Source of the DNA: Nostoc linckia FACHB-104
GTDB lineage: Bacteria; Cyanobacteriota; Cyanobacteriia; Cyanobacteriales; Nostocaceae
Reading direction: 5' to 3'
Assembly: GCF_014696615.1 (NCBI RefSeq)
Contig: NZ_JACJQJ010000041.1
Span: forward strand, 1-64,000
Length of the DNA: 64,000 nt
Made by a program: the position numbers and the translations under genes. This document shows positions 1-39,038 of this stretch, in pieces (position 1 is the stretch's first letter; the number at the start of each line of letters is the position of its first letter). Below the pieces are notes generated by a model. That model was given only the letters and a program-made list of their open reading frames with translations, did not search any database and was not told where the DNA came from.

Positions 1-436
1 AAGGGTCAATAGTCCAGGGTCAAAGGCTAGCTTGGACTTTGGACTCTTGACTTTTGACAACCTGAGTGCGAAATACACAATTTAAATGCGTAACAGCTTA
101 ACTAGTATAAATAAGATTCATAAATTAGTACCGCTTGGTAGTTGTTCAGCATTAAGTTTACCTTGCTGCCACATCATCCAAGCGGTTTTATAGCTTACAA
201 CTATTGATTTGGTATAGTCTCAATACTGCTCGGTTAAGGATTTTTTACTCGGAATTTAGTTTGGGGAAATGGTTAAATGGTAAGGGTTAAAGGTTTTTCT
301 TGCCCCTTTTCCCCTTCCCCTTTTCCCCTTAACCAACAAGTATTGGGTATAGTCTGTGTTTTTAACTCAGTACATAAGTCAAAATTGATTAACACTTGGA
401 TAAACTCTTGTGCAAGTTTATCCAATATGTCATCCT
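1..436. other. Intergenic region downstream of gyrA
   Basis: No credible gene was seen. The first 60 bases are simple repeats of GTCAA/GTCCA type, which recur near 13320 and 45330. The only structured item is the miniature element at 221-345. The two short ORFs crossing into the gyrA 3' end (starting 277 and 396) have no ribosome-binding site and lie over the element or antisense to gyrA. Confidence 0.6.
221..345 (+). mobile_element. Miniature inverted-repeat element, family A, copy 1
   Basis: 125 bp. The ends are CAATACTGCTCGGTTAAGG on the left and, read on the other strand, CAATACTTGTTGGTTAAGG on the right. A perfect 10-bp direct repeat GGTATAGTCT flanks it at 211-220 and 346-355. The interior is purine-rich on the left half and CCCCTTTT-rich on the right, so the whole element is a long imperfect palindrome with no coding capacity. 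The perfect flanking duplication argues for insertion by a transposase acting in trans. Confidence 0.85.
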
Positions 437-3043
437 TCATTCTGTCTCTTCTAATTCGCCTGTATCACCACTGTCGGGAGGAACTATAGCTACTCCGGTG
501 ATCGCATCATCTTCGTCTAAGCGCTGTACTCTTACGCCTGTTGCCGATCGCGATTGTACAGAAATGGCATTTACAGCTTGACGAATAATGATACCGCGAT
601 TGGTGACCATCATGATTTCATCATCGCTGTTGACAATCTGTAAGGTGGCTAATTTGTCTTTGGTTTTGCGGTTTTTGAATTTGGTTGCCATTAAACCCTG
701 ACCAGCGCGATTTTGCAATCGGAATTGGGCTACAGGTACGCGTTTGCCATATCCACCCATTGTAATTACCAACACCCAAGGGCCAGTACTAGCGATCGCT
801 GCTACTTCTGTGGATTCTTCATTTTCGATTTCTTCGGTTTCGATGATTTCTTCAATCTCGGTTTCGGCTTCAGTTTCTGTAACCGTACTCAAGGTATCGA
901 GAATTGCTGCTGGGAGGATATCCATACCCACCAGTTCGTCACCAGGTTTGAGTTTCATCGATTTCACACCACGAGTTGCTCTACCTAAAGGACGCAATTG
1001 TTCGTGGTTACAGCGGAAGTGAATCGCCATCCCATGACGAGAACCGACAATGACACTATCTTCTACCCTCGCGCGACGTACCCAGCGGAGTTGGTCGCCT
1101 TCTTCTAAGGAAATAGCGATTAAGCCGTTAGCCCGGATGTTACTAAATGCTTCCAATACGGTTTTCTTAATATTGCCTCCTTTTGTTAGCATGACTAAGA
1201 ATTCTTCACTGCTAAACTCATCAACTGGGACAATGGAGGTAATTTTTTCTTCCTTGGGAATGGGCAACATTTGCACAATTGGCGTACCACGACTGGTACG
1301 GGAACCCACGGGAATTTGATAAGCTTTCAGACAGTAGACGACACCGCGATCGCTAAAGAATAAAACGCTGTCGTGATCGCAGCAAGTTAAGAAATGTTCG
1401 ATGGTGTCATCATCTTTAACTTTGGCTGCTGCTTTCCCTCTGGTAGCACGGCTTTGGGCTTCAAAGGTATTAACTGGCATCCGTTTGATGTAACCTTGCT
1501 CTGTCAGCAAAATGATCACTTTTTCATTGGCGATCAAGTCAAGGTCATCGATGTCTCCCTCAGCATGGGTAATTACTGTGCGTCGGGGTGTGGAAAAGCT
1601 GGTTTTGATTTGTGAAATTTCGTCTTCAATGATTGACAGCACTCTTTCCCGGCGTGCCAAAATATCTTGCAAGTCGGCAATTTGCGCTTGTAAATCTTCG
1701 TGTTCCTGACGAATTTTATCTGCTTCTAGGGCTGTTAAGCGCCGCAGTTGCATTTGTAAAATGGCATCGGCTTGAACTTCCGAAAGCCCATAGGTGGTAA
1801 TTAGTTCACCTTTGGCTGTGGGTGCATCAGAAGCATGGCGAATTAAGTTAATAATGGCATCTAAATGCGCTAGAGCAATTAATAAGCCTTGTAAGATATG
1901 GTCGCGTTCTTCCGCTTTCCGCAGTTCATACCTGGTGCGGCGATTAATTGATTCAATGCGGAAATCGAGGAATACTTCTAAGAACTGCTTGAGTGTGAGG
2001 GTTTGGGGTTCCCCATTCACTAACGCCAACATATTGGCCCCAAAGTTGGCTTGCAGTGGGGTCTGCTTGTAGAGGTTATTCAGTACTACTCTGGGATAAG
2101 CATCGCGCTTAAGTTCGATGACGATTCGCATCCCATCGCGATCGCTTTCATCGCGGATATCTGCAATTCCCTCTATGCGTTTGTCATTGACCAACTCGGC
2201 AATTTTTTCAATTAATGCGGCTTTGTTGGTTTGATAAGGCAATTCGGTGATGATAATTGCTTCTCTTTCTGGCCTTCCCCGTTGCTCGATGGTTTCGATG
2301 TTAGCTACGCCGCGCATGGTAATTGAACCGCGCCCGGTGGTGTAAGCTTCTTTAATTGCTGCTGTTCCTAAAACCTGTGCCCCTGTGGGAAAGTCGGGAC
2401 CGGGGATATGCTGCATTAACTGGAGATTGGTGATCTCTGGATTGTTAATCAATGCTACTAATCCATCAATCAATTCGCCCAGATTGTGCGGTGGGATATT
2501 GGTCGCCATCCCCACAGCAATCCCAGAGGAACCATTTAATAGTAACTGGGGAATACGTGCTGGTAGAACTGTGGGTTCTTGTTGGGAACCGTCGAAGTTA
2601 TCAATAAAATCTACGGTTTCGGACTCAATGTCGTGGAGTAAAGCTGTGCCAGTTAAAGCTTGCAAGCGACATTCTGTGTATCGCATTGCGGCTGGGGGAT
2701 CGTTGTCTACGGAACCGAAGTTACCATGCCCGTTAATTAGGGGCGATCGCATGGAAAAATCCTGTGCCATCCGCACCAACGCATCATACACCGCCGTATC
2801 ACCGTGGGGGTGATATTTACCTAAAACTTCCCCAACCACACGGGCGCATTTACGAAACGGGCGATCGTGCGTCAAACCTAGCTCGTGCATTGCGTAGAGG
2901 ATGCGACGATGCACAGGTTTCAGACCATCCCTGGCATCTGGTAGCGCCCGACCCACAATCACACTCATGGCGTATTCCAGATAAGACCGGGACATCTCGT
3001 TCCGCAGATCTGTCGGGATAATCCTCTCCTGTGAGGTTGTCAT
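437..3043 (-). CDS. gyrA: DNA gyrase subunit A
   Basis: This is the breakage-reunion subunit of the type IIA topoisomerase that supercoils DNA together with GyrB. At 868 residues it is full length. The N-terminal winged-helix domain carries the catalytic tyrosine at residue 122 (AAMRYTECR), and the numbering matches E. coli GyrA. Residue 83 is Thr where E. coli has Ser, and Asp87 is kept. The C-terminal half is the beta-pinwheel. Its GyrA box is degenerate ([12 protein letters not shown] instead of QRRGGKG). An acidic Glu/Thr-rich insertion lies at about residues 716-751. Cyanobacteria also encode a ParC-like paralogue, so GyrA versus ParC rests on overall resemblance. The gene is transcribed away from the structured (+) region at 3118-3386. 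Confidence 0.9.
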
Positions 3044-3117
3044 AACCTAAAAAACTCCAAAAATCGCAGATTTTAGCCCTTGTTCTTGACAAAATGCAAA
3101 ATTATTCCAAATTGCTC

Positions 3118-3145
3118 TTGAATAATTGCCATATTTTGGTACAAT
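3118..3145 (+). promoter_or_regulatory. Promoter-like sequence, extended -10
   Basis: TTGAAT at 3118-3123, a 16-bp spacer, and TACAAT at 3140-3145 preceded by TGG, which fits a sigma-70 promoter with an extended -10. It would start a plus-strand transcript near 3152 running through two hairpins and the small ORFs at 3336 and 3467. Confidence 0.4.
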
Positions 3146-3165
3146 TCTAGCACATATTGCTTTTT

Positions 3166-3192
3166 CTTGCCGGGAGAGCTAACTCAGGCAAG
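3166..3192 (+). other. Hairpin in a putative leader RNA
   Basis: CTTGCC at 3166-3171 pairs with GGCAAG at 3187-3192, and GAG/CTC can pair inside it. It lies just after the predicted transcription start. A second inverted repeat follows at 3237-3278 (AGGCTTTT with AAAAGCCT). No match to a riboswitch class that I know. Confidence 0.35.
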
Positions 3193-3335
3193 TAAGGAGG
3201 CTACTGATTAGGAGATGGTAAATGACTGTACCACACAGGCTTTTGCTGACGAGTTAAGGGCAGTTAACTAAAAAGCCTCAAACATATAAGCAATTTAAAA
3301 TTCAGCATCAAAAACTCTAATACACAAGGAGTTCT

Positions 3336-3386
3336 ATGATTGCCATAAAATTAGATGCTGATCTAACTATCGACAGAACTGAGTAA
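3336..3386 (+). CDS. Small ORF (16 aa) with strong ribosome-binding site
   Basis: An ATG preceded by AAGGAG at good spacing opens a 16-codon frame, MIAIKLDADLTIDRTE, ending in TAA. It is either a true small or leader peptide or the surviving start of a gene lost by deletion. The neighbouring DNA shows no continuation in another frame. I do not recognise the peptide. Confidence 0.3.
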   Translation: MIAIKLDADLTIDRTE

Positions 3387-3466
3387 ATGTAGGATAAAGG
3401 TATTGACTATTGGCAATCTTTAAGAGTTTTATAATCATTAATTTATTGAGAGACGTTAAATTTGCA

Positions 3467-3679
3467 ATGATTTTTCAACAACTACGCATTGGCGATTACT
3501 TTCGCATACCTGGTATTAGCTTTTCTTGCGTTTATAGAAAGGCTAGCAGCTCATCTTGCACGCTAGATATGATTTTACGGCCTATCCGACGAAGCGCAAT
3601 AGTTGTACCGCTGAATCGACTTGAGTTGAGTAGATATATTGCAAAAAAGCAAGAATGTCTTAAAGACTTAGAGGAGTGA
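3467..3679 (+). CDS. Small conserved-looking protein, unknown function
   Basis: 70 residues from the internal ATG at 3467, which starts MIFQQLRIGDYFRIPG. The frame can be extended upstream to 3410, but the extra 19 residues look like translated spacer. The pattern LRIGDYFR...VYRK.S...LRPIR resembles short soluble proteins common in cyanobacteria, with a compact N-terminal beta part. That resemblance is from memory and weak. It has no signal peptide or membrane segment. It may share a transcript with the small ORF at 3336. Confidence 0.45.
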   Translation: MIFQQLRIGDYFRIPGISFSCVYRKASSSSCTLDMILRPIRRSAIVVPLNRLELSRYIAKKQECLKDLEE

Positions 3680-3953
3680 AAAAATAATTAGGATACAAGT
3701 CTATAAATTGATTTAGTCACCAGAAAAAATCTGAAATAACATTTATTCAAGCCCTCTGATTTATTCTTGGGGTTATTATTTTTAATTTTGCCTTTCCTAG
3801 AAGGGAATTAATCAGTAGGTCGGCGAAATTAAAGGTAACTGGCTGAGGCTGTCATTTGTCGTTGGTAAGGATTTCAAGCCTATTTATGTTTCTTAACATA
3901 GTTTTGTTTATTTCCATCGACTTACTTATATTTTTAAAATTCAAATCGAATTA

Positions 3954-4760
3954 CTATACTTTTTCTGGTAATTGCGGCGGCTTGATATTAAACCATTTTT
4001 GATAAATTTGTTGATAAGTGCCATTGGATAACAAAATACCTATCCCTTGATTAATTGTTGCCAAATAAGGAGAATTTTTAGGTGTAGCAATTCCGTAAAA
4101 TTCTTCTGTGAGTAAATTGGTAACCACTTTAATACCTTTAAGATTACCATTTTTAATGGCATACAAAGTCGCAAAGGCATCGCCGACTACCGCATCAACA
4201 TTACCATTAAGTAAGTCTTGGAAAAAATCAGGGCCAGAGTTATATGTACTAATGTAGGCATTGGGGATTGTTTTAGCGAAATCTGCACCCGTTGAGCCAA
4301 TTTGTACGCCAATCTTTTTACCTTTGAGGCTGTTTAAGTCTTTGATATCTTGGTTGTTTTCTCGAACTGCGATCGCTAGTCCAGCTTTAAAATAAGGTCG
4401 GGAAAAGTCAATGGTTTTCAAGCGTTCCGCAGTAATTGTAATACCGTTAATAGCTGCATCTACTCTTTTGGCTTGCAAAGTAGATATCATACCGTCAAAA
4501 GGTAAGGTTTCCCATTGAACTTGTAAACCGACTACCTGTGCGATCGCATTCATCAAATCAATGTCAAAGCCTTCCAAATTCCCATTTGAATTTTTCATCT
4601 CAAATGGTACAAATGTAGGGTCTGTAGCCACTTTCAGAGTTTTTAATTCTAACTTCGGACTTGTGGTGCTTGTAGGTTGCAATCCATGACAAGCAATTAT
4701 GAGTAACAGGCAACTTAAGCCCAAAATTAGTTTACGCCATTTTCTGTTCAGTAATTTCAC
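3954..4760 (-). CDS. Periplasmic amino-acid-type binding lipoprotein (SBP family 3)
   Basis: 268 residues. An N-terminal lipoprotein signal has the acylated Cys at about residue 24 (LLIIAC). It is followed by the family 3 solute-binding fold: an early KVATDPTFVPFE strand, the signature GFDIDLMNAIAQ, then DAAINGITITAERLKTIDFS and KKIGVQIGSTGADFA. Such proteins bind polar amino acids (often Gln, Arg or Lys) for an ABC importer. No permease or ATPase gene lies beside it, so it is an orphan here that either serves a transporter encoded elsewhere or acts as a sensor. The exact ligand cannot be read from the sequence. Confidence 0.85.
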   Translation of the reverse strand: MKLLNRKWRKLILGLSCLLLIIACHGLQPTSTTSPKLELKTLKVATDPTFVPFEMKNSNGNLEGFDIDLMNAIAQVVGLQVQWETLPFDGMISTLQAKRVDAAINGITITAERLKTIDFSRPYFKAGLAIAVRENNQDIKDLNSLKGKKIGVQIGSTGADFAKTIPNAYISTYNSGPDFFQDLLNGNVDAVVGDAFATLYAIKNGNLKGIKVVTNLLTEEFYGIATPKNSPYLATINQGIGILLSNGTYQQIYQKWFNIKPPQLPEKV

Positions 4761-4900
4761 TTGCGATAAAATGCTGAGGGCGTAGAGTTTATCTGAGATA
4801 ATGAGTTAAATCTGGTTTTTATTCTTTCATATTGAAACCTGCATGGCAAGAAGCAAGATGCATAATTTTACATTTAACTTTACATAATATTTTCTCGCTA

Positions 4901-5326
4901 TTACAAAAATAACTTCCGCATAAAGCGAAGTACATAAACAATATATTCTACCTGCGATTTAGTTTTCGAGTTTGACTTAATTTCTTGTAATATTTTTTGC
5001 ATTTCAGCAATATTTGTCGGATTAATACCGATAATTGTTGCTCTAATAATTGCGGCTCTAACACTATTGAGTGTATCTTTGCATTCTCGGACTGCTTCTC
5101 TTAACTTATTTACTTGTTCCCAATTTTTTTCTGCTTGAGCGTTTAAGAGTGCAAATTGAAGCTGCGGCAGAAGATTTTGTAAATCTTGCTCTATGTTATC
5201 TAGATGTGACACATCTATATGATTGTTGGGAACTGCTTTTAATTGCAAAATTATATCTCGCAATTTTTCTAAAATATCATTACTTTCTGTAATTACAGAA
5301 TCATCAAAATTCTCTAGATTACTCAT
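4901..5326 (-). CDS. Hypothetical helical protein
   Basis: 141 residues, ATG at 5326. It is rich in Leu, Glu, Lys and Asn with heptad-like spacing (LEKLRDIILQLKAVP, EQDLQNLLPQLQFALLNAQAEKNWEQ), which suggests helical bundle or coiled-coil structure. There is no signal peptide. The C-terminus is more hydrophobic (VEYIVYVLRFMRKLFL). It starts 17 bp after the stop of the upstream lipoprotein gene, so the two probably form one transcript. I do not recognise the family. Confidence 0.6.
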   Translation of the reverse strand: MSNLENFDDSVITESNDILEKLRDIILQLKAVPNNHIDVSHLDNIEQDLQNLLPQLQFALLNAQAEKNWEQVNKLREAVRECKDTLNSVRAAIIRATIIGINPTNIAEMQKILQEIKSNSKTKSQVEYIVYVLRFMRKLFL

Positions 5327-5343
5327 ATTTTATTAATTGTTTA

Positions 5344-6303
5344 TTAATTTCGGCATAATTGAGATTTTAAAGGTTGCGAACGTAAATTTATCTGAGATAC
5401 TTCTTGGAAAAACTCTTGCAAAGTTTTATCTTCATTTATTGATTGTTCGATACTATTAATCCTCGATAAAACTGAACTATAGTCTCTACCAGTGACATTG
5501 GTTGCTACCCCAACAATTTTAGTAATTCGAGTTGCGATCGCTTCAAAACTCAAAGAAGGGTATTCATCAATAAGTTTTGAGAGTTTTCTGCCTGTATCAG
5601 CTGCTATTAACAGCCTAGATATCGATTCATTGAGTATTTGCTGTTCAGTAGCATTTACTTTTAACCAAGCATCGATTTGTTCAGCAACTTGACGCTTAAT
5701 TTCGTCTGGCCCTAATTGGGAATATGTATTAGGATTATTGTACTTTCTCTGTAGCTGCTGTAGTTTTAAACCAATTAGTACCCGTTGCGGATTATTGGGT
5801 TTTGGTGGCTTTTGCTGAATTTGTTTAGCTAAGAGTAGCATCTTAACTGTTAAACATCGCGCTGGTTGGGCAGTTTTAGCTACTATTTTGGCACTGCCGT
5901 AGTCGATTGTTTCTAAATTGTTAAAAATCTCTATAGCTGTGTCATATTCTGATTGCAAAGCATCAAGTTCTCGCTCTAAATCTGATGGCTGATTATTTGA
6001 TTGATTTTCTCCCGTAATAATTTTATCTACCTCTCTGGGATCGCCAAAATTAATTCTGCGATCGCTAAGTAATTGCTCAACTACAAAATCACGAGAAATC
6101 TCAGCATCTAGAGGTAATTCGTTCAGTTGGTAGATTTTTTTCACAGATGCGATCGCATCAACCGCCTGATTACGAAAAGTCTCTGCTGTTAATCGCAACA
6201 TTGTTCTTTTTTCTGGCGTACAACTGCTAAGAGTGGTACTGAGAGTAAAAGCTATAATCAGAAATTTAGATAATGATGCCTTGTAAAATATAGTAACTTT
6301 CAT
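5344..6303 (-). CDS. Hypothetical lipoprotein, helical
   Basis: 319 residues from the ATG at 6303. An upstream TTG at 6315 is possible but less likely. It has an N-terminal hydrophobic segment with a lipobox ending TLSSC, then a long mostly helical region (ALQSEYDTAIEIFNNLE, VLIGLKLQQLQRKYN). It ends with a C-terminal part rich in Ile and Ser. No enzyme motif was found. It is the first gene of an apparent two-gene unit with the coiled-coil protein at 4901-5326, which suggests a lipoprotein with a soluble partner. Function unknown. Confidence 0.65.
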   Translation of the reverse strand: MKVTIFYKASLSKFLIIAFTLSTTLSSCTPEKRTMLRLTAETFRNQAVDAIASVKKIYQLNELPLDAEISRDFVVEQLLSDRRINFGDPREVDKIITGENQSNNQPSDLERELDALQSEYDTAIEIFNNLETIDYGSAKIVAKTAQPARCLTVKMLLLAKQIQQKPPKPNNPQRVLIGLKLQQLQRKYNNPNTYSQLGPDEIKRQVAEQIDAWLKVNATEQQILNESISRLLIAADTGRKLSKLIDEYPSLSFEAIATRITKIVGVATNVTGRDYSSVLSRINSIEQSINEDKTLQEFFQEVSQINLRSQPLKSQLCRN

Positions 6304-6880
6304 ATTTATATTCAAAATATGACAAAAGTCATGGGTAAATTCATGACTTTTGTCTGAATCTTTTTCTCCACAGACAGGATTAAATAATAACTTGAATCTA
6401 CCATTTGAGATGAAAGGGGTTACTACGTATTAGCAACAGAAGTGTAGTAACTATAAATTTGCCTCTGAAAGCTTAAGGTTTTCCATCCTCCATTCTATTC
6501 GCAACTATAGGTAACCTCAAGGCAACAGATAAGTCAACAGTAATTAGTGTTCATGTTCCTTATACTCCCAGAAGCTACTGATTAGTGGCTTCTTTTCCTT
6601 TCTATTTATCTGTAATTCTTAATTCCTCAATAGCAAAGTTTACAGTGTACGGCAGAAGCAGGGTGCAACGGAAACCATGCGCCACACTCATCATTGTATT
6701 TGTCTAGATCGCGTTTCCCAAAAAACGATATTGTTAGAAATTGTAGGTTGGCATAAATCACAGAATTTTTAAATAGTAAATTTGGATTCGAGATTTAGGA
6801 AATTTAACATCCCAAATCTAAAATCCCAAACCTAAAATCTAAAATTTATTGACAACCTGTTGTTCCACAATCCCTAGGCT
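6304..6880. other. Intergenic region between divergent genes
   Basis: No gene was recognised. On the plus strand AGAAGC and GCTTCT form a short stem around 6569-6595, followed by TTTTCC. It is terminator-like although no plus-strand gene ends here, so a small RNA is conceivable. Bases 6780-6850 are simple AAATCC/AAATTTAG repeats typical of cyanobacterial spacers. Confidence 0.4.
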
Positions 6881-12892: not shown

Positions 12893-12925
12893 CACATTTA
12901 GAAACAATCTATGCAGATTAGACCC

Positions 12926-13051
12926 CAATACTACTCGGTTAAAAGTTTTGAACTCAAAATTGGTTTTGGGGAAAAGGTTAAAGGTTAAGGGTTAAAGGTT
13001 TTTTCTTTCCCTAGAACCATTCCCCTTTTTCCCCTTAACCGACAAGTCTTG
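12926..13051 (+). mobile_element. Miniature inverted-repeat element, family A, copy 2 (diverged)
   Basis: 126 bp in the same layout as copy 1: left end CAATACTACTCGGTTAA, right end CCTTAACCGACAAGTCTTG. Flanks are GATTAGACCC (12916-12925) and GATAAGACCC (13052-13061), a 10-bp duplication with one mismatch. Internal divergence and the mismatch suggest an older insertion than copies 1, 3 and 4. Confidence 0.75.
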
Positions 13052-13422
13052 GATAAGACCCTATAAGAGCAAGAACAAATGCAATTTGATTTACATTTAT
13101 AGTTTGCATTTTTGTTTTTAATTATTTTTTAGGCTACCATTTACATAAAAAGAAGTGGCAAAGCCACTTCGTAATTCCCAGGTAGAACCTAGAAACGAGT
13201 ATAACCATTCTAAAAACTCGAAATCGTATAAATTAACACTGATTTAAAGTATCTAAATTTTCTAGTAGGCATAATTGCCATACTAGCTTATATTGCAAAT
13301 TGTCTTGTTTAGGCTGTCCAAGGTCAAAAGTCCAAAAAATCTTAATTTTTGACCTTTGACCGTTGACTCTTAAACCAGAAGATGAGTGTACTAGTTGCGT
13401 AAGTCCTGTTTGTAACAGCCGA

Positions 13423-19782: not shown

Positions 19783-19930
19783 AAGTTTATGAATTGCTGC
19801 CTTGTGAACTGCTTTCAGTATCACGTTACATAGCAACCCTTAAGTTATGAACAGCTAAAGCTTAGCTGAGAAATTCAATGGAATTTCCGATTTAGTTTTC
19901 ACTTTTTTCTCAGCAATTTTTCAGATAATT

Positions 19931-20001
19931 GGCGGTTAAGGGGAAAAAGGGGAAAGGGAAAAGGGTGAATTCAATCCTTTCCCCTTAACCGAACTGTATT
20001 G
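19931..20001. repeat. Degenerate family A element (shortened)
   Basis: About 71 bp with inner ends GGCGGTTAAGGGG and CCCCTTAACCGAACTGTATTG. The right end is nearly a perfect family A terminus, while the left end lost the CAATACT part. No flanking duplication was found. It lies between the NDH-2-like gene and the GH57 gene stop, and may act as a bidirectional hairpin. Confidence 0.5.
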
Positions 20002-23577: not shown

Positions 23578-23690
23578 TCACCCCCGAATCATGCGGTTGA
23601 GTAAGTTAATAACTCGCTGTTCAAATTCTTGGGGAGTAATGCGTCCTTTGGTGAGGAAGAGGGTTTGCCCTAACTTTAAGCGATCGCTAA
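23578..23690 (-). pseudogene. 3' remnant of a protein gene, truncated by element B
   Basis: Read on the minus strand, the frame encodes DRLKLGQTLFLTKGRITP, then a helical EFEQRVINLLNRMIRG, then TGA. The sense is good (amphipathic C-terminal helix) but there is no start, because the frame runs upstream straight into element B and a stop within it. Parent family not recognised. Confidence 0.4.
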
Positions 23691-23799
23691 GATATTCTGC
23701 TTTTAAGTTGCACAATTCATCGTGAGGGCTGTTGACAGTCAACCGTCAACTGTCAACAGCCTAATTAGTATTTATGCAATTTAGACGCACATTAGCTTA
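23686..23799 (+). mobile_element. Palindromic element B, copy 1
   Basis: 114 bp, matching the copy at 56786-56900 almost base for base. Ends are TAAGATATTCTGC and GCACATTAGCTTA. The centre is the hairpin GGCTGTTGACAGT / ACTGTCAACAGCC, a perfect 13-bp stem. The outer arms also share TTGCAxAA in inverted orientation. No coding capacity of its own. Confidence 0.65.
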
Positions 23800-29701: not shown

Positions 29702-32179
29702 CTACCTTACGATTAATTGCATTTGAATTGTGAGAATTACTGTGGTTGTAAGAGTTTGTGGTGCTAACCAAGTTAAAAGCGATCGCCTGATTGTTTCAAT
29801 CAATTCATGCTCTTTAATAGAAGAAAACTGCTCATCAAGTACCACCTGTCTCACTCTACCTTTACTAACTTGCAACTCAAACACTAAATTTCCATTGAAA
29901 ATTGTAAAGGTGTGAATTGATTGTAAATGTTGAGTGAGCAGAGAAATCATCTGTTGATCCAATCCAGATACACTCACTATTTGGGGACAATAGACAGGCG
30001 CAATTCCTGAGAGTTTGCCTTGTAATTCTTCCAACTCTGCATCAATGGGAGCCGGTTGATTAATATTTGAAGATCCAATTGCTACACCTGGTAATTGAGG
30101 AGCAGCCTCTTTTTTAGCCCGTTTTCTTTCTACTTTTAAGGACTCTACTTCATCAAAAGATTGTCTTGCCATTGGTGGCATTTCTGCCCTAGGTGCAGGG
30201 GGAGAAATGGTGCTTAGAGGTGGGGGTGCAGATAGCTGAGGTGAGGAATAGACCATTTCCACCATAGGCGCAGCCATTGCAGTTGGTACAGCACTACCAA
30301 ATATTCCCTCATAGCTAATACCTTCGGGCATTTCTACAGGTACTTGCACAGAAACAGAAGCTTCACGGGGATTTACGCGCACATCATCGCTGACGGCAAC
30401 GAAGGCGGTATATTGCGATAACAGTTGATAGGTAAGGGCTGTATCTGTCACTGCTTCTACACCTAGCTTGGTTTCACCACTCACCATCTGATTCATCAAA
30501 TCTTTGATACGGGAACGTCCCCAAAGTTGAGCGATCGCAGGATTACCTGTAGCTGTAAAATCCAGTTGGAAGGTGTGTTGGTAGCGCGTACCACTCGCAG
30601 CAATGCCAGTAATATGCAATTTCCCTGCACGGCTATCTGGTTTGCAGCCAAATAGCACTAACGGCTGTTCTGCAAATAAATCTGGTGGTGTGGAAGGATA
30701 CATCACTGGCGATGTGCCATCACCTTCCCATTGCAAGTTGATGTTGGCGAGGACAGGATTGTTAATCTGGCGGAAGAATTTTTCCACTACTTGATCAGTT
30801 GGCTCATCATGGCGAATCACGCGCGCCATCCCCCGCCCTAATTCCGCAATGCGATTGAGTAAGAAACGATTCACCGAACTACCTGCACCAAAGCTGTAGA
30901 GGCGGGTTCCGGGTTTGAGATGGCGTTGCACTTCTGCCAAAATTTGGTTTTCGTTGCCGATATAGCCATCGGTTAGTAGTACAATATTCCGCAAGCGTCC
31001 GGGATCTGTAACGGGGAAGTTCAAGACGGCGCGAATCCCGCGTAACATTTCTGTTCCGCCACCTGCATTTAATTGATTGATGTAATTAATTGCTAAGGCG
31101 CGATTTTGCGGAGTATTGGGGAGGGGAACAGGTGAAAGTTGCTGAGTGGTATCAGAAAAATCAATAATGCTGAAAGTATCGTCAGGATTCAGTCCATTAA
31201 TAAAACGCCGCATCAATTCCTGACATTGCATTAATGGCGCGCCGCTTTGAGAACCAGAGGTGTCAATGAGAAACACCATATCCTTAGGAACAAGCTGTTC
31301 TGGGCGATACTGGATAGCCGGAATTAAATAAACGGCAAAGTGTCCACCCCTTTCATCGTTTTGGGAGAGTACGGTTGCTTGCGTGCTGTTGCCTGCTACT
31401 TGGTAGCGTAAAATCAAGTCTTTATTGGGAATTGTATCTCCACCCGCCAGTTTGACTTTTACTCGTTGTCCCTCATAAGCGATTTGGATTTGGTGAGAAG
31501 GAGAGGAAATAGCCTGAATCTCCACCCCTGCATCAATTTCTACCGTGACATTAATATCATGGCGGGAGCGAGTACCCGAAGGTAAAATGGGTGCATTCAA
31601 GCGGGAAGCATCTGGTACTAGGTCAGTATCTTGGTTTTGCAGCATCGGTGCAGCAGCAGAACCACCACCTTGGGTATTGTCTTCAATGGTTGTTCCAGGA
31701 ATGTAACGCGGCCCCACCACCATTGGAAATACAAACTCGTAATTTCCCGCCGTAAAGTTTAGGCTTTCGGTGTAGCGAATAATCACATCAATTTGCTCAC
31801 CGGGTTTGATATTAGCGAGGGATTGAGTAAAAATGTTATCTCTTTCTTGTTCCAGCAGCCCAGCCGTCTGTCCTTGTTTTTTCGCTTGCTCGTAGATTTG
31901 CTGTGCTTCTTGGCGCTTTTTAATACTGCCTTGAATAGTGCGATCGCCAATGCGAATCAGCATATCATCAACAGCAGCCTCATCCGGTAACGGAAATATA
32001 TAAACAGCTTCTAATGTAGTTGTGAAGGGGTTTTCAAAGCTTTGGGTAACTTCCACCCGCGAGATATTGCCCGTTACTTGCGCTTGTACCTCAGTATGCT
32101 TTAAAGGAAAAGCAATTTGCTGTTGATTGGAAGTTTGAATATATAAGCCACCAGCTTGGCGTTCTAAAGTTTGAGTCAT
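29702..32179 (-). CDS. VIT and von Willebrand factor A domain protein
   Basis: 825 residues. The N-terminal VIT domain (about 10-140) contains VEVTQSFENPFTTTLEAVYIFPLP and ending motifs of inter-alpha-trypsin type. The VWA domain (about 295-470) has an intact metal-ion site DTSGSQSG at about residue 304 and later DDTFSIIDFSD. A Pro/Ala-rich linker (about 620-690) leads to a small C-terminal domain with strands (TFTIFNGNLVFELQVSKGRVRQVV). No signal peptide is obvious. Such proteins are thought to mediate protein-protein interaction; their function in cyanobacteria is unknown. Single gene. Confidence 0.85.
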   Translation of the reverse strand: MTQTLERQAGGLYIQTSNQQQIAFPLKHTEVQAQVTGNISRVEVTQSFENPFTTTLEAVYIFPLPDEAAVDDMLIRIGDRTIQGSIKKRQEAQQIYEQAKKQGQTAGLLEQERDNIFTQSLANIKPGEQIDVIIRYTESLNFTAGNYEFVFPMVVGPRYIPGTTIEDNTQGGGSAAAPMLQNQDTDLVPDASRLNAPILPSGTRSRHDINVTVEIDAGVEIQAISSPSHQIQIAYEGQRVKVKLAGGDTIPNKDLILRYQVAGNSTQATVLSQNDERGGHFAVYLIPAIQYRPEQLVPKDMVFLIDTSGSQSGAPLMQCQELMRRFINGLNPDDTFSIIDFSDTTQQLSPVPLPNTPQNRALAINYINQLNAGGGTEMLRGIRAVLNFPVTDPGRLRNIVLLTDGYIGNENQILAEVQRHLKPGTRLYSFGAGSSVNRFLLNRIAELGRGMARVIRHDEPTDQVVEKFFRQINNPVLANINLQWEGDGTSPVMYPSTPPDLFAEQPLVLFGCKPDSRAGKLHITGIAASGTRYQHTFQLDFTATGNPAIAQLWGRSRIKDLMNQMVSGETKLGVEAVTDTALTYQLLSQYTAFVAVSDDVRVNPREASVSVQVPVEMPEGISYEGIFGSAVPTAMAAPMVEMVYSSPQLSAPPPLSTISPPAPRAEMPPMARQSFDEVESLKVERKRAKKEAAPQLPGVAIGSSNINQPAPIDAELEELQGKLSGIAPVYCPQIVSVSGLDQQMISLLTQHLQSIHTFTIFNGNLVFELQVSKGRVRQVVLDEQFSSIKEHELIETIRRSLLTWLAPQTLTTTVILTIQMQLIVR

Positions 32180-32540
32180 AAAAATTACCTACCGCTATTT
32201 CTTTCCTGTCTCTAGCGTAGGTGGGTTAATCAGGCAAAAGTGCTCACCTTTGTGCTCACTATATGCTCAGATAATGTTTTTGGGCATCGGGAATAGGGCA
32301 TGGGGCATAGGGAAGAGTCACCAATGCCCCAATACTGCTCGGTTAAGGATTTTCAACTCGGAATTTAGTTTGGGGAAATGGTGAAAGGGTAAGGGTAAGG
32401 GTTAAAGGTTTTTTCTAGCCCCTTTTCCCCTTCCCCTTTTGCCCTTAACCGACAAGTATTGACCAATGCCCAATCCCATTTAGGTAAGCCAGTAGTTAAT
32501 TTAATTACGAATTACAAACTACGAATTACTAATTATTTGC
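32180..32540. other. Intergenic region with family A element
   Basis: Between the VIT-VWA gene and the 145-residue gene. It consists mainly of family A copy 3, GGCATNGGG-type simple repeats at 32280-32330, and AATTACGAATTAC-type repeats at 32500-32540. No gene. Confidence 0.6.
32330..32461 (+). mobile_element. Miniature inverted-repeat element, family A, copy 3
   Basis: 132 bp, left end CAATACTGCTCGGTTAAGG and right end CCTTAACCGACAAGTATTG (last five bases shared inverted with the left). A perfect 10-bp duplication ACCAATGCCC lies at 32320-32329 and 32462-32471. The interior matches copy 1 closely, with a small extra GGTAA repeat. Confidence 0.85.
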
Positions 32541-32978
32541 TTAGTTTTGAGCGTGCTTACCTATTACCTTGGCAAAATCAGGCACTGCGTCCTCAACATA
32601 TTGCTTGGCAGAACCGCGAAACTTATCATAAGTTCCGCGAACAATGGAGCGATTACTCTTTTGCACCCTCTGATCAGTAACACTCAGTAGCGCATCAGCT
32701 GCGCGAGAGCGACTCTCAACCAAGTAATCTACCGGATCACCCTTCTGTACACCTTCACTCCAGATAGGATCAATTGCCGTAAAGCACTGTGGTAGCAGCT
32801 GCTCAACAACATAAGGGATATATCCTGGCTTCACCCCTTTAAGTGCAGCAAAGGCAGTTTTGAGGGCCATGCCACTTAAACCTGACTTTGAAGCAATCTG
32901 TTCTTCGATCATTGTGCAGCAGTCATCCACAATCAAGTCTTTTTTGGTTGGGTTCAAGAGTTCTTCGCTCAGTCCCAT
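32541..32978 (-). CDS. Conserved hypothetical protein (DUF6918-like)
   Basis: 145 residues with a strong ribosome-binding site AAGGAGG before the ATG. All-helical, soluble: it begins MGLSEELLNPTKKDLIVDDC, then SGMALKTAFAALKGVKPGYIPYVVEQLLP and ADALLSVTDQRVQKSNRSIV. The pattern agrees with small uncharacterised proteins found in actinobacteria and cyanobacteria that I associate with DUF6918, from memory only. No catalytic motif. The strong ribosome-binding site argues that it is well translated. Confidence 0.65.
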   Translation of the reverse strand: MGLSEELLNPTKKDLIVDDCCTMIEEQIASKSGLSGMALKTAFAALKGVKPGYIPYVVEQLLPQCFTAIDPIWSEGVQKGDPVDYLVESRSRAADALLSVTDQRVQKSNRSIVRGTYDKFRGSAKQYVEDAVPDFAKVIGKHAQN

Positions 32979-33301
32979 TTAATTCCTCCTTAATTTCACA
33001 CTACTTAATTTTTATTCAACTAGTTTTCTATGCGACCAGGAAAATACAAGCTCCAATAGGATGTCTAAAATCCTACTAAGCGCACCCAGAAATTCTAAAC
33101 GAATTCCTGGGTGCGTTGCCATACACAAGGTATGAAAAAGAAAATTAACACTTCAAGTTAACTTAAGCAATTCCGGATATTGATATTTAAGGCACTAGGG
33201 AACAAGGAGGCTAGGGAGAAATTACTAATGTCTATTCACCCAATCCCCAATTCCCATTTACTATTGCCCCTTGTTCCGTTCCCCTTAACACGCCTCAAGA
33301 G
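32979..33301. other. Intergenic region
   Basis: AT-rich, with a possible promoter for the 145-residue gene. Bases 33077-33116 form an inverted repeat: CGCACCCAGAAATTC at 33077-33091 pairs with GAATTCCTGGGTGCG at 33101-33115, with a bulge. It could be a terminator or palindromic repeat. No gene seen. Confidence 0.45.
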
Positions 33302-33592
33302 TTAGCTTTCATGCTCTTGAGGATTAGTTATGTTTTTATCAGTTTCCAGTAGTCGTGAAATAAATACGTCTGGTTTTCTGCTAACAACAGACTGAACTTT
33401 ATCAATCGCAATTACTTCACTGATTTTGACAATCATTTCCCACAGAGTATCCTCCTCTGTCTCTTTGTTGTAGGTTCTGTGCTTGAACCACAACAAATCA
33501 TCCCAAACTCCGATAACTGTGGCGAAATACCATTTATCTCTGATTAATACCCAGATTTCTTGTTCTAAATAAGTCTGTAGGATGGATTTCAC
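33302..33592 (-). CDS. Hypothetical small protein, possibly Sm/SH3-like
   Basis: 96 residues starting with GTG at 33592; no convincing ribosome-binding site, so the start is uncertain. The middle has alternating hydrophobic strands (EIWVLIRDKWYFATVIGVWDD, then WEMIVKISEVIAIDKVQ), which could form a small beta barrel. The tail is polar. Not recognised. The neighbours give no clue. Confidence 0.5.
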   Translation of the reverse strand: MKSILQTYLEQEIWVLIRDKWYFATVIGVWDDLLWFKHRTYNKETEEDTLWEMIVKISEVIAIDKVQSVVSRKPDVFISRLLETDKNITNPQEHES

Positions 33593-33934
33593 AATGGTTG
33601 AGATAATGAAAAGACATTGCGCTCCAGATTACACGGATGTTACACTTTGTTGCTACAGTAAAAGTACGTAATTAATGAGTACAAAATCACCTATTCCTTA
33701 AGAGATAAGCCTTTAGAGTATTCAATTTATTCCTTACATAGCAGAGGCTATATCTTTCCCGAATTTCGATTGCTTATGCATTGAGTGTGTAGATAAGAAC
33801 CTCTGTTTGGAGATGAGGGAGATGAGGGAGAGGTAGAGAAATTCCCATTACCCATGCCCCATGCCCAATGCCCCATACCCCTTCAATTGGTATTACTTTA
33901 ATAACAGAATGAACTAACTTCAGCTGAGGTGTTT
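33593..33934. other. Intergenic region
   Basis: Promoter space for the divergent genes. Bases 33845-33890 are repeats of CCCATGCC type (STRR-like). No gene or clear signal otherwise. Confidence 0.5.
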
Positions 33935-34306
33935 ATGGGAGAAGCGAAAAACGTACTAGGAACCAATCTGGAGATTTGCTGCACTTCTCCAATGACAGGT
34001 TATTACCGAGATGGGGTGTGCAATACAGGGGGTCAAGATTTTGGGATGCACGTTGTTTGTGCTCAAATGACAGCAGAATTTTTAGAATTTACTAAATCTC
34101 AAGGAAACGACCTCAGCACACCTGTTCCTGAATTTAATTTTCCCGGATTGAAGCCAGGCGATCGCTGGTGTTTATGTGCGGCTCGTTGGCAAGAAGCGCT
34201 AGAAGCTGGCGTTGCTCCCCCAGTTGTGCTTGCATCAACCCATTCTCGAGCTTTAGAAGTCTGTAATTTAGACGAGATGAAGAAACACTCTCTAGCAGAG
34301 AAATAG
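33935..34306 (+). CDS. DUF2237 family protein
   Basis: 123 residues from the ATG at 33935, which has GAGG five bases upstream; a GTG at 33929 would add two residues. Typical DUF2237 features: NVLGTNLEICCTSPMTGYYRDG, CNTGGQDFGMHVVCAQMTAEFLEF, GLKPGDRWCLCAARWQEA and APPVVLASTHSRALE. Five or more conserved Cys and His residues suggest metal or redox chemistry, but no function is known for the family. Single gene. Confidence 0.85.
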   Translation: MGEAKNVLGTNLEICCTSPMTGYYRDGVCNTGGQDFGMHVVCAQMTAEFLEFTKSQGNDLSTPVPEFNFPGLKPGDRWCLCAARWQEALEAGVAPPVVLASTHSRALEVCNLDEMKKHSLAEK

Positions 34307-34398
34307 GAGATGTGGGAGCAGAAGAGAAATTCCTATTACCCATTACCCATTACCTATTACCCAATGTCCAACACCAAACACCTAAAGCAAAGCAGATT

Positions 34399-35256
34399 TT
34401 AAATGTGGTAATAGTTTGTTAATTCAAAGCCGCTAGCTGTCAAAGCTTGGCGCACCTGCTGACTTAATAAAGCTGCAAGTTCTACTTCACCTGCTCCTAA
34501 TGGGCCGTTTAATGGTTCACCTGGTTGAATGACTGCGGGATGGGAATAAATCTCTACTAAGTCTGCTTGAATTTGTGGTATTAAACCGAGCAAGTATTCC
34601 TCACTCATCTTTCCAGTTTGCAGCAATCCATAAACGCGATCGGCGTATTTAATACCGTGTGAGTTGAGTAAACTTTCACCATAGCTGCGGAGTCTGCCAA
34701 ATACTCCTGACCACACTAATTTATTAAATAGCCCAGTGCGGTCAAGCTTCAGAGTCATTGCTAGTTCTTCCGATGGAAGACGGATGACGCGAATATTAAA
34801 TTCCTGGGCTAATTCCACTAATATCCGCATTACTACGGGATGAGTATGTAAATGTAAATGCCCATCTACATGAGAAAGGGTCAGCCCAGAGTCGCGGAAT
34901 TTTACTAACTGGGCGCGGATTTCTTGCCTCAGTTCGTCACGAGTCAAGGCATTGAATTGATAACGTAACCCAGCTTGAAAAGGACTGTCGGAGAAATTAC
35001 CCTGAAAGTCTACCAAATGGGGAATTTGGGAGGGAGGGAGAGCAGCCCGACCACACACCAGCACTAAATGCAAGCCTACGGCTAAATTAGGGTGATGACG
35101 TGCCCAAGCGATCGCATCTTCGGCAGCATCTCCAGTTACCATCAAACTGGTACTAGTTAGTACACCCTGTTCATAAGCCTGGATAATTGCTTGGTTGACT
35201 CCAGCAGAAAAGCCAAAGTCATCGGCATTAATAATTACACGGCGGGCTTTTGTCAT
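34399..35256 (-). CDS. hpnK: Hopanoid biosynthesis-associated deacetylase HpnK (YdjC/ChbG fold)
   Basis: 285 residues. The N-terminal VIINADDFGFSAGVNQAI carries the metal-binding Asp pair of the YdjC/ChbG deacetylase fold. Later VDGHLHLHTHPVV supplies metal-ligand histidines, and the C-terminal VEIYSHPAV the last one. The ChbG family removes acetyl groups from N-acetylated sugars; HpnK is the member tied to bacteriohopanepolyol head-group modification. It follows hpnJ by 64 bp on the same strand, which supports the assignment. Confidence 0.82.
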   Translation of the reverse strand: MTKARRVIINADDFGFSAGVNQAIIQAYEQGVLTSTSLMVTGDAAEDAIAWARHHPNLAVGLHLVLVCGRAALPPSQIPHLVDFQGNFSDSPFQAGLRYQFNALTRDELRQEIRAQLVKFRDSGLTLSHVDGHLHLHTHPVVMRILVELAQEFNIRVIRLPSEELAMTLKLDRTGLFNKLVWSGVFGRLRSYGESLLNSHGIKYADRVYGLLQTGKMSEEYLLGLIPQIQADLVEIYSHPAVIQPGEPLNGPLGAGEVELAALLSQQVRQALTASGFELTNYYHI

Positions 35257-35320
35257 TTGTCATTAGGTAATCTTTTCTCCCCTGCCCCCTGCTCCCTGCC
35301 CCCCTGCCTCATAAGAGTCC

Positions 35321-36772
35321 CTAATCCCCAACCCCCGCGTGTGCAGCAGTCTGCTGATTACGGCGTTCTTTCAGGTAGGAGAAGAACTCTCCGCCTTCGC
35401 GTAGACGACGTACCATCATCTGGCGGTCTGCGAGCATTTCCTTAACAATTGGGATGATGGCTTTGGGACGGAAGTAGAATTTCCGGTACATTCGCTCAAC
35501 TGCATCCTCGATTTCTTCACTGGAAAGTGTGGGATATTGCAGGGTTGAGGTTTGAATACCGGAATTAGCTACTAAAGATTGGTTAGTAAACCAGCCGTTT
35601 GCTTGGGCTTGTTCATAAAGTTCTGTACCTGGGTAAGGTGCAGCAATTGAGACTTGAATTGTATGGGGACTCAGTTCGCAAGCAAAGCGAATAGTCTCTT
35701 CTACTGTTTCTCTGGTTTCAATTGGTAAACCAATAATGAAAGTGCCATGCACAGTAATCCCCAGCTTATGGCAGTTTTTCATAAATTCCCGTGCCACTTC
35801 TAGCTTGATGCCTTTTTTAATGCGGTTGAGAATATCTTGGTTACCAGATTCAAAACCAACAAGCAGCAAGCGCAGACCATTGTCGCGCAGAGTTTTCAGG
35901 GTATCGTAGTCTAAATTGGCACGAGCGTTACAACTCCAAGTGAGTTTGAGCCGCTTCATGTGTTCGCTAATTGCGATCGCGCGATGTTTGTCGATGGTAA
36001 AGGTATCATCATCAAACATATACTCCCGTACCTTGTCGCCAAAGATGGCTTTGGCTTCTTCCATCTCCCGCCCTACAACTTCTGGGCTTTTATGACGGTA
36101 GAGGTGACCGCCAATTGTTTGCGGCCAAAGGCAGAAGGTGCATTTTGCCGGACAACCGCGCCCAGTGTAGAAAGAAATGTAAGGATGCAGTAGGTAGCCG
36201 ATGAAGTATTTTGTAATATCTAAGTCACGGGCATAGGTAGGAAGGACGCTGGGCATAGCATCCCAGTCATGAATTAATGGCCGCTCCTCGTTGTGGCGGA
36301 TATTAGAATGCTGATCGCGATAACTTAGACCTTTAATATCTTCCCAAGGTAGACCTTCTGCCAGTTCTTTGCAGGTATAGTCAAATTCATTGCGACAAAC
36401 AAAATCGATCACCGGATGATCCCGCAGTGTTTGCTCCGGTAATACTGCCACATGAGCCCCAACAAAACCAATCTGCACATCTGGATTTTGGGCTTTAATG
36501 GCTTCAGCACACTTCACATCATTAGCCAATGAAGGTGTACTGGTGTGCATGATTACCAATTCGTAATCCTTAGCGATTTTCAGCACATCATCCACAGTCT
36601 GTCCATGTGGTGGGGCATCCACAAGCTTACTACCTGGCACGAAAGCCGCCGGTTGCGCTAGCCATGTGGGATACCAAAAGGAAGTAATTTCGCGTTTAGC
36701 TTGGTATCGCGAACCTGCACCACCGTCAAATCCATCAAAGGAAGGAGGACTGAGGAACAAAGTTTTCTTCAT
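35321..36772 (-). CDS. hpnJ: Hopanoid biosynthesis radical SAM protein HpnJ
   Basis: 483 residues with a strong AAGGAG before the ATG. An N-terminal B12-binding-like domain (about 1-150) is followed by a radical SAM domain with the cluster ligands Cys207, Cys211 and Cys214 (GCPAKCTFC), then LRLLLVGFESGNQDIL and HGTFIIGLPIETRETVEETI. In hopanoid pathways HpnJ is the radical SAM enzyme associated with forming the cyclitol ether head group. The pair with hpnK and the synthase upstream fit that pathway. No squalene-hopene cyclase is in the window. Confidence 0.85.
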   Translation of the reverse strand: MKKTLFLSPPSFDGFDGGAGSRYQAKREITSFWYPTWLAQPAAFVPGSKLVDAPPHGQTVDDVLKIAKDYELVIMHTSTPSLANDVKCAEAIKAQNPDVQIGFVGAHVAVLPEQTLRDHPVIDFVCRNEFDYTCKELAEGLPWEDIKGLSYRDQHSNIRHNEERPLIHDWDAMPSVLPTYARDLDITKYFIGYLLHPYISFYTGRGCPAKCTFCLWPQTIGGHLYRHKSPEVVGREMEEAKAIFGDKVREYMFDDDTFTIDKHRAIAISEHMKRLKLTWSCNARANLDYDTLKTLRDNGLRLLLVGFESGNQDILNRIKKGIKLEVAREFMKNCHKLGITVHGTFIIGLPIETRETVEETIRFACELSPHTIQVSIAAPYPGTELYEQAQANGWFTNQSLVANSGIQTSTLQYPTLSSEEIEDAVERMYRKFYFRPKAIIPIVKEMLADRQMMVRRLREGGEFFSYLKERRNQQTAAHAGVGD

Positions 36773-36792
36773 TGATAGCTCTCCTTAGTTAA

Positions 36793-36919
36793 GGGTAATT
36801 AGTAATTGGTAATTGGTAATTGGTAATGATTCATGGGTAATGGGTAATGGGTAATGGGGTAAAAGTTATTTCTTCTTTGTCTCCCTCATCCCCAGTCCCC
36901 AGTCCCCAGTCCCCAATCC
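36793..36919. repeat. Tandem heptamer repeats (STRR)
   Basis: Three runs of degenerate heptamers: GGTAATT units from about 36798, GGGTAAT units from about 36835, and CCCAGTC units at 36891-36919. They fill the spacer between hpnJ and the synthase gene. These are simple tandem repeats, with no spacers or dyads of a CRISPR. Confidence 0.8.
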
Positions 36920-36923
36920 CTCA

Positions 36924-37754
36924 TCAGCTAGCTTTCATATTCACATCTATAAATTTCTTCAGGAGTGCCAAAACATCGTTACGGCTGAGTTTTTCTTTAC
37001 CGTTAGCTAAGGCATCCAGGGTTCCATGTGCCAAAGTGAGGGGAATTTGGCAAAAATCTAAAGCAGGCCCAGGTGGCAGGTGTTTAGTATAAGCATCAGC
37101 CAAGGCTAAATTGCGGCGTGCGTATTCTTGCATATTTGCGGTAGTCCAACCTTCGGGATAAAAGTCTACGCCCCGTTTCAAATCTTCAGTGTGATTACGT
37201 AGGATATTTACTGCTTGTAAGCCACGTCCAAAACCAATAGCTTGAGTACGGTTAGTTTCTGTACTGTCATACCAAGCCCATAAATCTGATAGTAGTAACC
37301 CCACCGCCCCTGCAACCCCGAATGTATAACGATCTAAATCAGATTCTGTTTTAATCTGCCAATTCTGTTCCGCCCAGTATGCCATGCGGTCTGCCATTGC
37401 AGCGGTTGCATCCCAAATTCGAGGTGCGATGGATTCAGGTGCTAATATTGACCATTCTCTAATTCCTAGGGTAACTTCTGCTAAAGTATTCTCGTAACCA
37501 CTAAATCCTGAGGAGAAGGCATCAACTGCAAAGCCATCTACCCCTGCTTGTAATGTCAAGCTAATTGTTCTTAATAGCTGCGCTTTAGTTGGGTTATCCA
37601 GTTCTGGATGATCTTCAATTTCATCAATAGCTCGCATACACAAGTATGCTGACGCTACTGCTTCTTGTAATCCCGACGGTAATATACTAATTGGAATGTA
37701 AAAAGTTCGACTAGTTTCCTTCAGGATTTGCAGTGCGTCTTGACGTAAATCCAT
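36924..37754 (-). CDS. Squalene/phytoene synthase family protein
   Basis: 276 residues from the ATG at 37754 with GAGGAG upstream; the frame could extend 11 residues more. The trans-isoprenyl head-to-head synthase fold is shown by the first Asp-rich motif MRAIDEIEDHPE near residue 45. The second region FGRGLQAVNILRNHTEDLKRG follows near 190, where Asp-rich usually reads NxxRDxxED. The motif here is NILRNHTED, with Asn-His replacing the usual Asp-Ile/Val. It lies upstream of hpnJ-hpnK, so a squalene-forming role for hopanoids is likely. HpnC/HpnD-type or phytoene activity remains possible. Confidence 0.78.
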   Translation of the reverse strand: MDLRQDALQILKETSRTFYIPISILPSGLQEAVASAYLCMRAIDEIEDHPELDNPTKAQLLRTISLTLQAGVDGFAVDAFSSGFSGYENTLAEVTLGIREWSILAPESIAPRIWDATAAMADRMAYWAEQNWQIKTESDLDRYTFGVAGAVGLLLSDLWAWYDSTETNRTQAIGFGRGLQAVNILRNHTEDLKRGVDFYPEGWTTANMQEYARRNLALADAYTKHLPPGPALDFCQIPLTLAHGTLDALANGKEKLSRNDVLALLKKFIDVNMKAS

Positions 37755-39038
37755 GTTTTCACTCCTCTCTTGATTATCACACCACATGAAGTTTTCGGTT
37801 TTTTGATGATACTGGATCTAGTTTTTACTAAACCTTAAAAACTGTATTTTTGCTAGTATTTCCTCTAAAAATTAATGGTTGCTGGTATCACAATTAACAA
37901 AATTCTCAAATTGTTCAAAGTCTAGTCTAGTATATAGGGCTTTAGTGACAAAAATGCATAGTAGATGAGAAGGTCTAGCTATCATTAAATTTTCCTGTAA
38001 ATATGAACTATTATGCGGAAAATTAGGCAATTAACTGCACAGTTTTCCAGTAATGAACAGCCACTATTAGATGGTTAATAGCTCTGATGTCTATATGAAG
38101 TTGACTAGAATAGCATAGTTATTGTATCTATAGAGACAACAAATCAAAGATTTGCTCAAGGATAATTAAGAACCTCAGACTAAACCAAGGTCTAGATTGT
38201 GAGCAAGAGGATCTAGGTGAAGATTCAGGAAAAAGGATTGATAAATAAAAATATTACAACCAGTACTGATAAATTATAGATATTAATCATGAAGCTCGCG
38301 CACAAGTAGTTTCCGGCTATTGAAACTCAGGAAATTTAGGCGATCGCATCCTGAATCCCAAATCAAAATTAGTCATAATCATACCAGTATTTTCTTTATC
38401 AATGCAGTGTGGCACTAAGCACATCATTAGTTTTGCCATAATTACTGATTCAAATCATCAAACTCTACTATCAATACTTGTCGGTTAAGGGCAAAAGGGG
38501 AAAGGGAAAAGGGGCAAGAAAAAACCTTTAACCCTTACCCTTTCACCTTTTCCCCAAACTAAATTCCGAGTTGAAAATCCTTAACCGAGCAGTATTGACT
38601 CTACTATTTATTCAGGGGGGTTAAGCCCCATAATTTATGCTTGCATTCCTCGGATGCTTTTGTGGCTAAGGAAAGAGTAAAATCATCTCAAAATTTCCAG
38701 ATGAGATTGCTTGTACTCAGGATTTAATTTGTGAACACATATTTGGTAATCTACCAAAAGCTCTTATCAATGCTTAAGTGCTTTTAAATTTATCAATCAA
38801 TACGGTTATTACATTTAATTTCATTTCCTGCAAAAATTTAAATCCTTCTCAAAAAGAATGCAACAGATGGGTAGGAGCATGACATTTTTGTACTCTTAAG
38901 CATCATTTATCTGTCGCAACTATTACGTGAATTCCTACTATCACAATTTATATAAGCATAGAAGTTTTTTAAAAGAGAATAAAATCTGTAAATGAAACCC
39001 AATTTTGAACAAATTAAGAGGTTTAAATTAAAGGCTAT
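37755..39038. other. Long intergenic region
   Basis: About 1.28 kb with only family A copy 4 at 38472-38597. The rest is AT-rich with many stops in all frames. A HIP1-like GGCGATCGCA lies at 38340. No tRNA or coding sequence seen. It may contain the promoter for the synthase-hpnJ-hpnK set at its left end. Confidence 0.6.
38472..38597 (-). mobile_element. Miniature inverted-repeat element, family A, copy 4 (reverse)
   Basis: 126 bp in the opposite orientation to copies 1-3, starting CAATACTTGTCGGTTAAGG and ending CCTTAACCGAGCAGTATTG. A perfect 10-bp duplication ACTCTACTAT lies at 38462-38471 and 38598-38607. The body matches copies 1 and 3 closely, so this is probably a recent insertion. Confidence 0.86.

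Follow-up and report, generated by a model that had tools for sequence, protein, structure and literature searches.

Movement of a MITE by a helper IS is a known kind of system, and the family analysed here is a well-documented new example of it. Among cyanobacteria, Nezha has Anabaena variabilis and Nostoc PCC 7120 as hosts. In the sections of the literature considered here it is described as a cyanobacterial MITE (PMC3733652, PMC3049150), for which mobilisation by ISNpu3-like elements was proposed (PMC3049150). For Anabaena sp. 90, the relevant part of the published account counts 147 complete or partial MITEs, 15 of them within disrupted ORFs, reports no evident similarity to the ends of the ISs of that genome and suggests an autonomous mechanism (PMC3542288). 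The IS4 family is described as cut-and-paste in the part of its classification used here (PMC2266710).

We analysed four repeats in a 64,000-nucleotide stretch of DNA of Nostoc linckia FACHB-104, the whole of which is called the window in the following. Like Nezha, as far as the cited sections describe it, they represent a cyanobacterial MITE with an IS as its presumed helper in trans, whereas the helper proposed for Nezha is ISNpu3-like; this is a comparison by description only. The MITEs of Anabaena sp. 90 are likewise numerous in a nostocalean genome, a resemblance that refers to the description in the cited part of the report and not to end sequences. The four repeats are very probably MITE copies moved by an IS4-subgroup transposase of full-length ISs with the same ends. 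An abundant cyanobacterial MITE family is thereby connected with its likely helper IS, and both empty sites and a constant length of the duplications are documented for it.

Copies, subfamilies and insertion sites

Three of the copies belong to subfamily A, namely those at 221-345 (125 bp) and 32330-32461 (132 bp) on the plus strand and the inverted copy at 38472-38597 (126 bp) on the minus strand. The copy at 12926-13051 (126 bp, plus strand) belongs to subfamily B. The terminal inverted repeats comprise about 19 bp, two positions of which are freely variable. Target duplications of 10 bp flank each copy: GGTATAGTCT at 211-220 and 346-355, ACCAATGCCC at 32320-32329 and 32462-32471, ACTCTACTAT at 38462-38471 and 38598-38607, and, with nine of ten bases identical, GATTAGACCC at 12916-12925 and GATAAGACCC at 13052-13061. 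A first-pass annotation of this DNA had listed the same coordinates, lengths, inverted ends and direct repeats (three perfect, one 9/10) with one copy in opposite orientation, all of which we reproduced. Its statement that the copies encode no transposase agrees with the absence of any ORF of at least 100 aa overlapping one of the four. Searching the window with the end pattern CAATACTNNTCGGTTAA at up to three mismatches gave 11 matches, compared to a mean of 1.9 and a maximum of 5 in 100 shuffles. By this end-pattern search a decayed relative was detected on the minus strand at 19925-20001, with a single recognisable end (19985-20001, one mismatch).

In the window's own genome (G000), a draft assembly, the same pattern with at most one mismatch occurs 146 times in forward and 131 times in reverse orientation (277 matches), compared to 2 and 0 for the reversed pattern. 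For the exact 19-base end we counted 151 occurrences, and none for its reversed control. The genome search with the MITE ends proposed in the first-pass annotation thus revealed many copies. A DNA search with copy 221 delivered at least 41 matches, which is a lower bound because 40 of 216 first-look candidates were scored. A copy set was compiled from all end pairs with a spacing of 80-200 bp in 60 loci of this genome and in the window, resulting in 49 unique elements, a few of which may be mispaired or nested ends. Subfamily A comprises 37 of them with a mean identity of 96.9% to the consensus, including copies 221, 32330 and 38472; subfamily B comprises seven (95.8%), including copy 12926, and the remaining five each stand alone.

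The 10-mers flanking these 49 copies are perfect duplications in 26 cases and differ by one mismatch in 13, while ten copies with three or more mismatches have no clear target duplication. In all 26 perfect cases the longest perfect flank word is exactly 10 (lengths 4-19 tested). When left and right flanks were mixed between copies as a control, none of 2352 pairs was perfect and one had a single mismatch. The 39 good targets display a weak symmetric preference, summed by hand and without a significance test: purines at position 1 (33/39) and position 2 (26/39), A or T at position 3 (30/39) and position 8 (32/39), and pyrimidines at position 9 (28/39) and position 10 (29/39).

Empty sites were sought in the same-genus genomes G001-G007 with the DNA around each copy, and the loci retrieved were then compared with the two flanks of the copy in joined form. 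Only loci spanning a site were counted, the remaining genomes being uninformative at that site. All four loci have empty counterparts in relatives, each with a single target copy, and this comparison, also put forward in the first-pass annotation, supports transposition. Site 221 is empty in G003, G002 and G007 (in the latter, 4 bp of the target are missing), site 38472 in G005 and also in G003 (98.97% identity over 290 bp), site 12926 in G003 and G005, and site 32330 in G005 and G007. The repeats are real mini-transposons of about 126 bp that are mobile within the genus. At least three copies had been considered recent, which the comparison confirms only in part. For 221 and 38472 no filled site appeared among the relatives' loci compared, but 32330 is filled in G003, and 12926 is shared as well. 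The latter is common to G002, where the copy is left-truncated (it lacks the left target and the left end together with the beginning of the element), and to G007, where the right part of a copy is visible.

RNA folding of the four window copies predicted long hairpins; the five folds, which cover both strands for copy 221 and a single strand for the other three, have z values of -3.2 to -5.3. Such folding of single strands would also suit non-mobile repeats that are spread by recombination or that are structural or regulatory. This explanation is extremely improbable in view of the 10-bp duplications and of the empty sites with one target copy at each of the four loci, although an RNA or DNA structure may have a secondary effect beside the mobile origin.

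Full-length ISs that share the MITE ends

Among plasmids, a query with 30 bases of the end retrieved 38 records, eight of which were examined. In one of these eight, CP150887 from Aphanizomenonaceae cyanobacterium TIOX110 (locus L108), an annotated IS4 family transposase adjoins an end. The L108 element has a length of 2150 bp, begins with CAATACTGCTCGGTTAAGG at both ends and is flanked by the perfect 10-bp duplication GGGCTGCTGT; its first 19 bases are identical to the MITE left end. The same query bears on the question whether the family is Nezha or an isoform of it, which concerns the name and not the mechanism. The published description of Nezha as a cyanobacterial MITE with proposed ISNpu3-like helpers, in the section cited above, would be in line with this identity. 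None of the 38 records is named Anabaena variabilis or PCC 7120, a weak counterargument, and overall we consider the identity unlikely.

A tblastn search with the L108 transposase gave a match of 73% in L110; in L109 it detected a 53-aa piece. The L109 element (1049 bp) has kept the IS ends and an extra ORF, with the 53-aa match as its transposase part. IS231-related mobile cassettes (MICs) are known cassette-type elements. L109 resembles them in being cassette-like, but it has IS4-subgroup instead of IS231 ends, and its flanking 10-mers are unmatched. When the 462-aa L108 transposase was compared with 145 family genomes, 51 genomes matched at E <=1e-30. Among thirty transposase loci examined, 16 combine both ends with a perfect 10-bp duplication (one of these, L113, seemingly being from the same organism as L108), one has a 9/10 and one an 8/10 duplication. 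For the other 12, which include fragments and loci close to a contig end, none was found. Full-length ISs sharing the MITE ends, which the first-pass annotation had suggested looking for, thus exist in related genomes.

Two subtypes can be distinguished. The first carries the transposase and mostly measures 1474-1568 bp (one element 1802 bp); the second reaches about 2150-2210 bp because of an extra, divergent ORF of 126 aa beside the transposase. For the IS4 subgroup, the cited portion of PMC2266710 gives a typical size of 1400-1650 bp, from which the longer subtype here differs with its about 2.15-2.2 kb and its second ORF. It also states that passenger genes have not yet been observed in IS4 subgroups besides IS231 (PMC2266710). 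The second gene in the IS4-subgroup elements described here is conserved. No match was found for the 126-aa ORF in Pfam or NCBIfam, and phrog_3362 was reached at E 0.024 only. Its AlphaFold2 model has a mean pLDDT of 91.9 and matched no solved fold at E <=0.001.

The suggestion of an IS4-group transposase, made originally from the duplication length, is now well supported by domains, ends, DDE/YREK residues and 10-bp duplications. The L108 transposase matches Pfam PF13006 (Nterm_IS4, 2e-19) and PF01609 (DDE_Tnp_1, 6.6e-12) as well as NCBIfam NF033592 (IS4, 1e-52). Across 11 chosen aligned transposases D140, D217 and E321 are invariant, as is the series Y314-R317-E321-K328; D140 and D217 are presumably the catalytic aspartates. 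The invariant residues are spaced in accordance with the IS4 family patterns D(60-110)D(100-150)E for the DDE residues and Y(2)R(3)E(6)K for the second series. Table 1 of De Palmenaer et al. 2008 (PMC2266710) gives ends of the form -AATR--------WTW---- and direct repeats of 10-13 bp for the IS4 subgroup; CAATACTGCTCGGTTAAGG agrees with every listed position of this consensus. As far as the cited part of that paper goes, the subgroup and the ISs described here have ends, 10-bp repeats, the Y(2)R(3)E(6)K series and the spacing of the DDE residues in common.

Taken together, these features lead us to the following model. An IS4-subgroup DDE transposase made by full-length ISs would bind the common ends of about 19 bp and excise the MITE, which would be pasted into a target whose two strands are cut 10 bases apart; repair of the staggered cut would then create the 10-bp direct repeats. 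We infer that the IS4 transposase acts on the MITE in trans, and a cut-and-paste mode is probable by analogy to the IS4 family. Most likely, full-size IS4-type elements of related genomes move the MITE copies. The compared interiors of MITE and ISs show no match beyond about 19-20 bp of the end, and a simple internal deletion of an IS was rejected as origin on this ground. Because only the ends are common to MITE and ISs, the MITE may have originated from two end sequences that became placed on either side of unrelated DNA.

The window nonetheless holds related transposase DNA itself. By sequence comparison, a relic of an IS4-subgroup element of about 1.5 kb lies at 56174-56521 (plus strand) and consists of short pieces of both ends of the transposase gene and the right end, whose minus-strand sequence from 56521 is CAATACGGTTCAGTTAAGG. 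When positions 56301-56521 are aligned with the full element in L134, the identity is 94.6% in 222 columns.

Occurrence of the candidate helper

The exact 19-base end is present in 92 of the 145 family genomes (control zero in the genomes listed), with 232 occurrences in G002, 151 in G000 and 125 in G007. Twelve genomes contain at least 19 ends. Six of them (G000, G003, G007, G012, G028, G071) are without a transposase match at 1e-30, and the other six have one, in G005 only a fragment; further weak transposase fragments in G003 and G005 were detected by profile search. G002, a genome of the same genus, carries three intact transposase genes of the L108 type, all on contig C4, which is identical over the 5501 of 5501 bases compared to NZ_CP063788.1, a plasmid of Tolypothrix sp. 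PCC 7712. Two of the elements on this plasmid measure 2168 bp and are uninterrupted but without matching flanks; the third (3723 bp) has an IS66 family transposase gene inside and a perfect 10-bp duplication. In the portion of PMC9679502 considered here, which deals with Tolypothrix PCC 7712 and 7601, the term 'IS4' does not occur and these elements are not mentioned.

No intact matching transposase was found in G000, where nine scored candidates gave no match at 1e-30, or in the four contigs of G007, despite the many copies in both. The profile search of G000 returned one match, to a more distant type. Elements of this type in G005, whose transposase is 86% identical to the one in G000, start with GAATGGCACTAAG, and one such end is also present in G000; here a different transposase accompanies different ends. 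The more distant G000 transposase was rejected as helper, since its type has other ends. The single-ended end loci of G000 contain no parent IS. MITE DNA is present in each of the seven pieces of G000 that carry end motifs close to a contig end, without an IS match of more than 20 bp, and three of the seven contigs (C13, C22 and C102) end inside a MITE; a parent IS hidden at these contig ends was rejected accordingly.

The lack of an intact matching IS4 transposase in two genomes rich in copies would be expected if another transposase, undetected or unrelated, moved the MITEs and the IS4 elements were mere look-alikes. However, MITE ends, duplication length and hosts coincide with those of the IS4 elements, and 25 PF01609 loci of G000 have no matching end pair at up to four mismatches, which makes another transposase quite improbable. 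For the IS4-subgroup helper, the distribution permits a tentative scenario, possible but not favoured, in which chromosomal MITEs persist without helper and burst when a plasmid brings in the IS4 transposase, which is lost later. Its basis is that the helper genes of G002, the genome with 232 exact ends, are all on one plasmid and that G000 and G007 are without detectable helper, yet two insertions of G000 have only empty sites in relatives. Alternatively, the helper may be absent from the draft assemblies only. The helper of such a MITE may therefore need to be sought in relatives or plasmids and not in the host genome. Non-coding MITE and IS4 transposase together are predicted to form a natural two-part transposition system for filamentous cyanobacteria.

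Distribution beyond the genus

A full-text literature search with the end sequences, with most subscription journals outside its scope, returned only unrelated topics (human or mouse by title), and the family may have been described earlier. An end scan of genome contigs from 84,980 species delivered at least 107 stretches. Among the matches listed, at least 106 carry a cyanobacterial label, Nostocales for the most part, with Chroococcus, Trichocoleus, Phormidium, Moorena, Hormoscilla and others also represented, and one (L295) is labelled as a Bdellovibrionales MAG. Of the 107 matches listed, 43 have a partner end and a 10-bp duplication with no more than two mismatches, which is perfect in 31 cases; the scan took the pair with the best duplication and so favours finding one. 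The 31 perfect duplications among the matches listed are all exactly 10 in length (6-14 tested). For the other 64 of the 107, including lone ends and those at contig ends, no partner end with such a duplication was found. Two of the 43 pairs, L307 with 2184 bp and L312 with 1482 bp, are as long as an IS. The MITE interiors differ between genera, as seen for L070 and L073 compared to the window copies, and we therefore distinguish several MITE types with one common set of ends.

Additional ORF of the longer IS4 elements

The IS4-type elements of about 2.2 kb contain a conserved ORF of 126 aa, divergent to the IS4 transposase gene, as seen at L108:4690-5067 (element locus on CP150887), L347:328-705 and other loci. 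A homologue (45%) was detected in the genome of FACHB-104 at L100:2207-2686, where it comes after another transposase ORF of 475 aa, which by eye is IS50/Tn5-like. The AlphaFold2 model of the 126-aa product (pLDDT 91.9) predicts an architecture of a helix, three strands and a long helix; comparison of this model with the PDB revealed no fold match at E up to 0.001.

On plasmid p1 of Nostoc sphaeroides, a stretch of 1049 bp (L109:3001-4049) is bounded by IS ends. Here, the additional ORF is retained and the transposase match comprises just 53 aa. Comparison of its left and right flanks gave no match.

MITE copies at contig ends

Three contigs of the FACHB-104 draft (C102, C22 and C13) start or terminate inside MITE copies (contig-end loci L354, L355 and L357), and the assembly was therefore probably broken by this family. 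Among the 107 loci listed from the wide scan for the MITE/IS end, the sole non-cyanobacterial label is that of L295, a MAG labelled Bdellovibrionales.

Other repeats in the window

Positions 1-100 represent a further repeat, with stretches of 95-99% identity at several sites of the same-genus genomes G003 and G007 and one match in G001 among the matches listed. The stretches at 34332-34382 and 36808-36858 are both low-complexity, with repeats of ATTACCC / GGGTAAT type, and run in opposite orientation to each other. A direct repeat of 77 bp is present in three copies, at 23686-23762, 56786-56862 (90% identical to the first) and 60057-60133 (71% identical to the first).
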